From positions 1 through 33,040 of IMG/VR virus record IMGVR_UViG_3300022200_006590: a DNA stretch of 33,040 nt; one strand, written 5' to 3'. The DNA comes from a virus. The notes beneath the pieces were generated by a model. That model saw nothing but the letters and a program-made list of their open reading frames with translations. It did no database searches and was not told where the DNA came from. Positions 12,098 to 28,651 of this stretch are shown piece after piece. Every line of letters begins with the position of its first letter. Position 1 is the stretch's first letter. The position numbers and the translations under genes are program-made.

Positions 12098-12105
12098 TAT
12101 ATTTG
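12098..12105 (+). promoter_or_regulatory. -7 element TATATTTG for HNH gene A and its leader
   Basis: TATATTTG on the + strand fits TAnnTTTG. Transcription would start a few bases downstream, right where hairpin 1 of the leader begins (12109). The same octamer occurs at the equivalent place before HNH gene B, which supports it as a real promoter element. A proper -33 TTG is not evident; the nearest TTG (12083) is only 12 bases upstream. Confidence 0.55.
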
Positions 12106-12108
12106 TCT

Positions 12109-12205
12109 CGCAATCTACTACTTGCGTTTAAGATAAATAGGTGAAACACCCTAAACGAGAAGTCCAAATAGATGTGTAGTAGCTCTATTTGGATTTTCTT
12201 TTTAT
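12109..12205 (+). ncRNA. Structured kissing-loop leader of HNH gene A
   Basis: Hairpin 1 has stem CGCAA/TTGCG (12109-12113 with 12122-12126) and the 8-base loop TCTACTAC. Hairpin 2 has stem TCCAAATAG/CTATTTGGA (12163-12171 with 12185-12193), extendable to 12159/12197 with two G-U pairs, and a 13-base loop holding GTAGTAG at 12176-12182. That heptamer is the exact complement of CTACTAC in loop 1 (12115-12121), so the loops can kiss. Hairpin 2 is followed by TTTTCTTTTT, like a terminator, 20-odd bases before the ATG at 12217. A small GGTG/CACC hairpin (12140-12150) lies between them. HNH gene B has the same layout with unrelated paired sequences. The pairings are read directly; the fold and any function are inferred. 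Confidence 0.55.
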
Positions 12206-12216
12206 ATTAAAACATC

Positions 12217-12942
12217 ATGGAACACTACAAAAATTTAAGTTTAGAAAATATCATTTACACAAATGATGAAGGTCAGGTTTGTGAAGAAATTTGGAAAGAT
12301 ATTCCAGAATATGAAGGATTATATCAAGTAAGTGATTTAGGAAGAGTAAAAAGTTGCAGAAAAAAAACAAAAATACTAAAGGGTTCTTTTTTTAAAACAT
12401 ATAGATACATTTGTCTTTGTGTTTGTAACAATAAAAAACCTAATGCTATACATGTTTTGATTGCAAATGTTTTCTTAAATCATATTCCCAATGGACACAA
12501 CAAAATAGTTGACCATATAAATAATATAAAAACTGATAATAGATTATGTAATTTACAAATAATTTCTCATAGAGAAAATGATTCTAAAAATATTTTTAAT
12601 AAAACAGGTGAATTAGGGTTGTATTTGTCTAAAAACGGAAAGTTTGGAGCAAGTGTTTTTTTTGATAATAAAGCATATAACATAGGGGTATTTGATAATA
12701 AAGAAGATGCTATATTTGCAAGAAAAAAATCTATTGAATTATATTTGTTAGGCAAAGATTTTCTATCTGTAAGAAATAAAAAGTCAATAGATATATATAA
12801 ATGTGTTTACAAAAAAGGTCAAGTTTTTTATGCCAGAGCTTCTTTTAATGGAAAAACATATAATTTAGGATACTTTAAAACAAAAGAAGAAGGATATAAC
12901 GCTAGATTATTATTTTTTAAACAAAAAGGATTAATATTATAA
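12217..12942 (+). CDS. Homing-type HNH endonuclease A (NUMOD4-HNH-AP2-like)
   Basis: The 241-residue product has a NUMOD4 motif (about residues 23-46, EEIWKDIPEYEGLYQVSDLG) and an HNH nuclease core (about 78-122, with H79, D99-H100 in IVDH, and N112). Two AP2-like DNA-binding repeats follow (about 133-175 and 195-236, the second with ARASFNGKTYNLGYF). This is the layout of free-standing phage homing endonucleases, which nick or cut at a specific site and spread their own gene. It is on the strand opposite to all surrounding late genes and occupies the gap between the GNAT and 180-residue genes. Its stop overlaps the GNAT stop convergently by six bases. Its first 20 residues match HNH B except at position 3, so the two are recent paralogues at their 5' ends and diverge afterwards. 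Confidence 0.88.
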   Translation: MEHYKNLSLENIIYTNDEGQVCEEIWKDIPEYEGLYQVSDLGRVKSCRKKTKILKGSFFKTYRYICLCVCNNKKPNAIHVLIANVFLNHIPNGHNKIVDHINNIKTDNRLCNLQIISHRENDSKNIFNKTGELGLYLSKNGKFGASVFFDNKAYNIGVFDNKEDAIFARKKSIELYLLGKDFLSVRNKKSIDIYKCVYKKGQVFYARASFNGKTYNLGYFKTKEEGYNARLLFFKQKGLIL

Positions 12943-27925: not shown

Positions 27926-27933
27926 TATATTTG
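27926..27933 (+). promoter_or_regulatory. -7 element TATATTTG for HNH gene B and its leader
   Basis: TATATTTG on the + strand fits TAnnTTTG and equals the octamer before HNH gene A. Hairpin 1 of the structured leader begins seven bases downstream, near the expected transcription start. No -33 TTG is visible. Confidence 0.55.
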
Positions 27934-27939
27934 CATCAT

Positions 27940-28036
27940 AGTTATAGCATCTCACTTATAATAACTTAAAGATATTAGCCAATTATTTTTGAAAACGAGG
28001 TGAGATGCGTTTGATAAAATGATTGGCATTTTTTAT
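27940..28036 (+). ncRNA. Structured kissing-loop leader of HNH gene B
   Basis: Hairpin 1 has stem AGTTAT/ATAACT (27940-27945 with 27961-27966) and a 15-base loop containing GCATCTCAC (27947-27955). Hairpin 2 has a 12-bp stem with one G-U pair (GCCAATTATTTT 27978-27989 with AAAATGATTGGC 28016-28027) and a 26-base loop containing GTGAGATGC (28000-28008), the exact complement of the loop-1 nonamer. Hairpin 2 is followed by ATTTTTTATTT, then AAAACATC and the ATG at 28047. The stretch between the hairpins (27966-27978) resembles the matching stretch of leader A (12128-12140), both of the form TTAA-GATA-TAG. Apart from this and an AAACGAG motif the two leaders are dissimilar in sequence but equal in design. 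Pairing is observed; function is inferred. Confidence 0.6.
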
Positions 28037-28046
28037 TTAAAACATC

Positions 28047-28643
28047 ATGGAATACTACAAAAATTTAAGTTTAGAAAACATTATTTATACGAATGATGAA
28101 GGTCAAATTTTCGAGGAAATTTGGAAAGACATTCCTGATTATGAAGGGTATTATCAAGTGAGTGATTTGGGAAGAGTAAAGTCTTTAGAAAGAATGGTTA
28201 AAGGTCGTTTAGGGTTAAGGGTTCAAAATAAAAGAATTTTATCTCAAGCGGAAATTAATGTTGGATACTTAAAAATAACTCTACACAATCAAAAAAAACC
28301 TAAACAATTTTTAACACATCAACTTGTGGCAATATCTTTTTTAAACCACGTATTAGATGGTACAAATAAAATTGTTGTAGATCACAAAGACAATGATAAA
28401 TTAAATAATAATTTGTTTAATTTACAATTAATAACAAATAGAGAAAATTCATCAAAAGATAAAAAAGGTGGATCTTCTAAATATGTTGGGGTTATGTGGC
28501 ATAAATCGAGAAAAAAATGGGAGTCAAGGATAAGACATAAAGGTAAGCTTCTTTTTTTAGGTTTATTTGTTGATGAATATGAAGCACATTTGGCTTATAA
28601 AGAAAAATTAGAAGAAATAAAAAAAACCACTAACATTAATTAG
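28047..28643 (+). CDS. Homing-type HNH endonuclease B (NUMOD4-HNH-AP2-like)
   Basis: The 198-residue product has NUMOD4 (about residues 23-46, EEIWKDIPDYEGYYQVSDLG), an HNH core (about 90-135, H91, D112-H113 in VVDH, N125 and the NRENSS segment), and one AP2-like repeat (about 145-190, KYVGVMWHKSRKKW to FVDEYEAHLAYKEK). This is the usual layout of free-standing phage homing endonucleases. It lies antisense to the late genes, in the gap between the 99-residue gene and terL. Free-standing HNH genes are often found beside conserved packaging genes. Its first 46 residues are very like those of HNH A; the middle differs, and it has one AP2-like repeat instead of two. The last codons form half of a bidirectional terminator. 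Confidence 0.9.
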   Translation: MEYYKNLSLENIIYTNDEGQIFEEIWKDIPDYEGYYQVSDLGRVKSLERMVKGRLGLRVQNKRILSQAEINVGYLKITLHNQKKPKQFLTHQLVAISFLNHVLDGTNKIVVDHKDNDKLNNNLFNLQLITNRENSSKDKKGGSSKYVGVMWHKSRKKWESRIRHKGKLLFLGLFVDEYEAHLAYKEKLEEIKKTTNIN

Positions 28644-28651
28644 TGGTTTTT
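28622..28651. terminator. Bidirectional terminator overlapping the HNH B stop
   Basis: An 11-bp perfect stem (AAAAACCACTA 28622-28632 with TAGTGGTTTTT 28641-28651) has an 8-base loop. It ends HNH B transcripts and, on the - strand where it is followed by TTTTATTTC, the 311-to-99-residue late unit. Its left arm encodes the final Lys-Thr-Thr codons of HNH B, and its right arm begins with the TAG stop. Confidence 0.85.

Follow-up and report, generated by a model that had tools for sequence, protein, structure and literature searches.

Hairpin loops of about 7–8 nt in the ColE1 RNAs RNAI and RNAII are fully complementary, and their pairing is confined to the loops. Attenuators of the pT181 type carry a 5' hairpin and an intrinsic terminator before the gene, with loop-loop pairing as the first contact (PMC4878617). 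The putL RNA of HK022 forms two stem-loops just past the PL promoter and requires no protein (PMC9378689). In homing endonuclease genes of the T4 type (I-TevI, segB, mobE, and seg43(25)), RNA hairpins restrain expression, mostly by hiding the ribosome binding site (RBS); the hairpin of seg43(25) precedes the RBS and leaves it exposed (PMC2988022).

The leaders described here share part of their design with each of these systems. They occur in the window, by which we mean the whole 33,040-nt stretch of viral DNA analyzed, and in other phage loci, and appear to be cis-acting 5' RNAs of Bacteroidota phages, about 80–110 nt long and transcribed from a host-type promoter. Like ColE1 RNAI/RNAII, the leader has complementary loops of ~7–8 nt with loop-confined pairing; unlike ColE1, it has both hairpins in one RNA and on the same strand, one of them a terminator, with neither an antisense transcript nor a link to replication. 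It resembles pT181 in its 5' hairpin, in the intrinsic terminator that precedes the gene, and in the loop-loop contact, but pT181 depends on a separate antisense RNA together with an antiterminator, and the leader has no antiterminator complementarity. The HK022 put RNA is likewise a phage leader of two stem-loops just after the promoter; we know of neither a terminator as second hairpin nor changing loop-loop pairing in put RNA. T4-type hairpins also place RNA structure directly before a homing endonuclease gene, usually as a single hairpin over the RBS, whereas the leader has two kissing hairpins and a free start codon, and precedes other genes too. Kissing loops and terminator leaders are each known, but we found no earlier case in which one leader combines them. 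The first-pass annotation knew of no described RNA class of this design, which agrees with what we found: literature searches in a library largely without subscription papers turned up no such leader class in titles or abstracts, and Rfam (release 15) gave no match to the window at the gathering score nor, in ten loci with leaders, any match at the leaders up to E=5.

Direct reading confirmed both of the leaders that had been proposed in the window, all of whose parts lie on the plus strand. Leader A begins at a promoter −7 element, TATATTTG (12098..12105), by its sequence of the Bacteroidota TAnnTTTG type. At the expected RNA 5' end stands hairpin P1, CGCAA-TCTACTAC-TTGCG (12109..12126), which carries the kissing strand CTACTAC (12115–12121). 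A small middle hairpin, GGTG-AAA-CACC (12140..12150), found only in the type-A subgroup of leaders, separates P1 from the terminator-like unit of P2 and T-tract (12163..12203). P2 has the stem TCCAAATAGA/TCTATTTGGA and the loop TGTGTAGTAGC (12163–12193), with the second kissing strand, GTAGTAG, at 12176–12182 and the T-tract at 12194–12203; CTACTAC:GTAGTAG, read from the sequence, makes 7 bp. Gene A, encoding a NUMOD4-HNH endonuclease of 241 aa (12217..12942), follows and is preceded by AAAACATC-ATG.

Leader B has the same order of parts and different sequences. Its −7 element is at 27926..27933, its P1, TTATA-GCATCTCACT-TATAA, at 27942..27961, and its P2 with a T-tract of six Ts at 27978..28034. 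The lower stem of P2, GCCAATTATTTT/AAAATGATTGGC (27978–28027), is followed by an internal loop and an upper stem, AAACG/CGTTT, and the kissing strands GCATCTCAC of P1 (27947–27955) and GTGAGATGC of P2 (28000–28008) pair over 9 bp. When only nested structures are allowed, folding favors a long kissing helix over P1 and P2, which is a limit of the method and perhaps also a real transient state. Gene B (198 aa, 28047..28643), likewise preceded by AAAACATC-ATG, encodes a second NUMOD4-HNH endonuclease, and the domain test found both NUMOD4 and HNH_3 in the products of both genes. A strong inverted repeat with a T-run at the 3' end of gene B (28622..28651) may serve as the terminator of the cassette and may act in both directions.

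Both HNH genes lie antisense inside runs of minus-strand genes, and each therefore needs its own promoter. In a relative with 57% terminase identity (L391/G030), both sites are empty, with neither leader nor HNH gene, and no leader was found in 58 kb of this genome. Another contig (L254) shares the terminase flank, 96% identical up to window position 27935, at the promoter, and beyond this flank carries a type-A leader and a different HNH gene. The empty sites in the one and the swapped leader and HNH gene in the other indicate that leader and gene were exchanged together. As judged from these comparisons, promoter, leader, and HNH gene in the window are one self-contained mobile unit.

The first-pass annotation had also proposed that the leaders hold a selected loop-loop RNA structure in which pairing is kept rather than sequence, and a wider sample bears this out. 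Bacteroidota-type phage contigs and isolates supplied 65 non-redundant leaders with 33 distinct kissing 7-mers, and complementarity is kept in all accepted leaders. In IMG/VR, genes homologous to the HNH N-terminus are preceded by leaders built alike but with unrelated loops, including GTCGAAG, GTCGTCG, GGTCTCAC, AGTGGGT, CAGGCAGG, and others. A loop-agnostic scanner, which requires the promoter, a P1 stem of at least 4, a 7-mer in the P1 loop, the reverse complement of this 7-mer in a second loop closed by a stem of at least 6, and a T-rich tail, gave 39 distinct matches in 1.3 Mb, compared with 0, 0, 0, 0, and 1 in five dinucleotide shuffles. Among 41 NUMOD4-HNH genes chosen without the kissing criterion, with TAnnTTTG required 60–150 nt upstream, 22 show loops that match over 7 nt or more, where 0.70 would be expected. 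Homologous leaders were also checked for lost complementarity: in type-A leaders retrieved through loop 1 alone and having a second loop, 26/26 pair (15 with T-A, 11 with C-G, and no mismatches).

Since the kissing helix is a pseudoknot, beyond the reach of covariance models, we counted pairs on a named pseudoknotted structure. In an alignment of 25 sequences (A2), pairing in the kissing helix is complete (100%) and 3 of its 7 pairs show double changes, while the whole structure has 13 double-change pairs, compared with 5.3 ± 1.4 in shuffles (0/500). RNAalifold recovers P1 and P2 independently. Comparison across leaders shows P1, P2, and the pairing of their 7–9 nt loops to be under selection as RNA, with the sequence itself free to vary.

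Two further observations concern the loops. In alignment A2, column 73 in the P2 loop mostly covaries with the kissing pair 7–79 (C with C-G, T with T-A), which might reflect a base triple or an alternative pair within loop 2. The regions upstream of two other HNH genes (L403 and L442) have P1/P2 loop matches of 8–10 bp, a G-U pair among them, and P2 there contains an additional hairpin; the exact scanner misses leaders of this kind, so our leader counts are low estimates.

Every part of the leader is also an inverted repeat in DNA, as would be expected of operators for a looping repressor, for example. We nevertheless find a DNA-level origin scarcely credible. G-U pairs are frequent in P2 (UG at column pair 64–88 in 19/25 sequences of A2), which favors RNA over a DNA inverted repeat, strand and order are fixed relative to promoter and ORF, and the three helices interlock. 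The sequences also differ in most leaders, excluding one common DNA-binding protein.

At the sequence level, then, the leader has the physical kissing motif of ColE1, complementary loops of ~7 nt with pairing confined to the loops. The analogy with RNAI/RNAII, drawn when the leaders were first noticed, is fair for the contact and breaks down in that the ColE1 contact joins two molecules. The arrangement of ColE1 replication control, a separate antisense RNA acting on a primer RNA, was not found: both hairpins lie on one strand between promoter and ORF, and the genes behind the leaders encode HNH proteins, a methylase, a portal protein, and others. Nor is the design that of a kissing complex only. 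The loops do pair, and in addition P2 resembles an intrinsic terminator and stands directly before the start codon. Function is hinted at chiefly by this terminator and by P1 lying where the RNA is expected to begin, and both had gone unremarked.

To describe the class, we used 90 matches gathered without the tail rule. The order of parts is a host-type promoter (TATATTTG), P1, an A/U linker or small hairpin, P2 with a U-tract, and the start codon. The promoter logo of 63 leaders is TATATTTG, of which TAnnTTTG was imposed by the scan and the middle TA was not; TAnnTTTG is the Bacteroidota consensus used by the primary sigma factor (PMC7366714). The kissing helix is exactly 7 bp in 60/90 matches and 8–11 bp in the others, and is therefore confined to the loops. 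Kissing 7-mers have a G+C content of 56%, compared with 37% for leaders as a whole (65 leaders). In many leaders, P2 is divided by an internal loop: below it lies the terminator stem, and above it an upper stem of 3–5 bp capped by a loop of ~8 nt. Common sequences of the internal loop are GAGUA/GAAA, resembling a bulged-G (loop E) motif, and UGAU/UGAU, resembling tandem G-A pairs.

P2 is shaped like an intrinsic terminator, with a stable stem that runs straight into a U-rich tract: at least five of the 8 nt after P2 are T in 63/90 matches, although no tail was required. A strict terminator scan (loop 3–8) does not call P2 because its loop is larger than this. The form of an RBS-sequestering hairpin was not found; the start codon lies outside the helix, mostly 8–25 nt 3' of the end of P2. 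In the 65 leaders with a tail and an ORF, mean energies are −16 kcal/mol for P2, −2.4 kcal/mol for P1, and −9.7 kcal/mol for the kissing strands as a free duplex.

From this anatomy, the leader would be a transcription attenuator tuned by loop-loop contact, limiting or timing expression of the one gene behind it, a reading on which our confidence is evenly balanced. P1 would be ready first and would capture the P2 loop as P2 leaves the polymerase. At P2, RNA polymerase would either stop, leaving a stable RNA of ~90 nt, or read into the gene, and the kissing contact would set how often termination occurs while also tying down the RNA 5' end. We infer that some transcripts terminate at P2, at a frequency tuned by the kissing contact. 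We looked for an antiterminator, and upstream complementarity to the 5' arm of P2 was 4.4, compared with 4.5 in shuffled sequences. With no excess of such complementarity, we rejected a classical two-state attenuator of the pT181 kind; the contact itself, or another factor, would therefore be the control element.

Further points weigh against an attenuator. A terminator that merely lowers expression would need neither P1 nor kissing, and end protection would account equally well for P1 standing exactly at the 5' end, which makes protection of the 5' end the main rival. In that explanation, P1 base-pairs the extreme 5' end of the mRNA and is held against P2 by the kissing contact, hiding the 5' phosphate from pyrophosphohydrolase and RNases and so stabilizing the mRNA, while the U-tract is incidental and P2 hardly terminates. 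Consistent with this, P1 starts 3–5 nt past TTTG, the expected transcription start, in 56/90 matches, and is weak enough alone that it would need a kissing partner. We think it unlikely: the regular T-tract at the foot of the stem is left unexplained, and a plain strong 5' hairpin would suffice with less.

Put-like antitermination, in which the folded P1–P2 binds its own polymerase and lets it pass P2 and later terminators, has a precedent in the protein-independent stem-loops of HK022 putL (PMC9378689), and the leader here is likewise a phage leader with two stem-loops, lying between a promoter immediately upstream and a terminator-like site. Here, however, the second stem-loop is the terminator itself, hardly any primary sequence is kept across the class, whereas an RNA that binds polymerase should keep its contact bases, and leaders precede single genes such as HNH insertions, not only long operons. 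We therefore judge this possibility poor, and a trans-acting role of the RNA poorer still. A promoter, a compact fold, and a terminator are the marks of a small RNA, and the terminated product of ~90 nt could be functional, with the downstream gene read through at a low level; yet the loops, which vary from leader to leader, already pair with each other, a common target or seed is absent, and the leader is always directly 5' of a start codon.

Within the attenuator reading, a bolder proposal, which we hold tentatively and think somewhat likelier to fail than to hold, is that these leaders are a new class of regulatory RNA, widespread in phages. By kissing the loop of an intrinsic terminator, the 5'-terminal hairpin would set termination kinetically without ligand, antisense RNA, ribosome, or antiterminator. 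If the first hairpin of the RNA holds the terminator loop, termination could be set simply, with neither ligand nor protein. Whatever their action, the leaders add a structured RNA class to the phages of a major bacterial phylum in which gene control is little understood, and the comparative support for this class is strong enough to act on. Leaders within one phage would be insulated from each other because their loops differ, and if the proposal is true, the leaders of one phage are a natural set of orthogonal attenuators, whose naturally varied loop pairs would serve the building of attenuators that do not cross-talk. The idea can be tested in cultured Flavobacterium phages.

Many other phage genes would have recruited the same kind of leader. 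It stands directly before the start codons of genes for ResIII/DEAD helicase, C5 cytosine and N6/N4 methylases, GIY-YIG/NUMOD3 and T5orf172 proteins, an HTH_36 protein, DUF6291, YopX, and a phage portal protein, and replication genes are also among those preceded by it. These genes share no common pathway, and thus no signal is apparent. The upstream gene has the same direction in 35 cases and is divergent in 20. The HNH N-terminus MEYYKNLSLEN.., encoded in the window at 12217 and 28047, is common to otherwise diverged HNH proteins and is separable from the leader, as it also occurs directly after an upstream gene with no leader (L060 and L065). The leaders had first been described as a feature of an HNH endonuclease cassette. 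This stands insofar as the leader moves with the endonuclease gene in the window, and needs revision for the class, given the unrelated genes and the leaderless HNH genes; on the same grounds, we rejected an HNH-specific guide or homing RNA.

Contigs have 0–3 leaders, and in those with at least two, the loop pairs are all different (14/14). Type A occurs exactly once per record in 25 records. We considered such within-genome orthogonality as proof of selection against repeats and rejected it, as second leaders are too diverse (0 of about 19 are intact type A). Our loci were gathered through HNH similarity and two loop patterns, and leader counts are therefore not prevalence. That the IMG/VR contigs have Bacteroidota hosts is judged from their promoter type and from the isolates. 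Among the latter, Flavobacterium phage mumin9-1 (L384) has leaders before endonuclease gp34 and before gp37, the gp34 type being common to 34 Flavobacterium LMO6/LMO9 phage records, Flavobacterium phage FCL-2 (L385) has a leader before gp54, and Polaribacter phage Danklef_1 (L382) has one before Danklef1_42. The leader is not universal, as scans of Cellulophaga phages phi10:1 (50 kb) and phi14:2 (first 50 kb) and Polaribacter phage P12002L (33 kb) found none. By blastn, type A is absent from plasmids and isolate phages. Cellular genomes were searched for type A only, and the single match, in Gottfriedia, has neither promoter nor P2 and was taken as chance. Matches listed by a scan of viral contigs for the GTCGTCG pattern were also mostly chance.

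Truncated type-A leaders that keep the promoter and P1, with P2 deleted, are found in L257 (about 3824) and L242 (327–342, minus strand), and these natural deletion variants would be useful for testing. A leader in L224 (at 1714, minus strand) precedes an ORF of 308 aa with no Pfam match, the middle of which resembles sigma factor region 4 by eye, and which is possibly a phage transcription factor. In four other contigs (L068, about 1897–1985, and L161, L083, and L096), the region between TAnnTTTG and the HNH ATG has another design, that of H-type pseudoknots (in L068, for example, AATGTAGT..TTCACGTT..ACTACATT..AACGTGAA), and structured leaders before HNH genes may be common outside the kissing class too.
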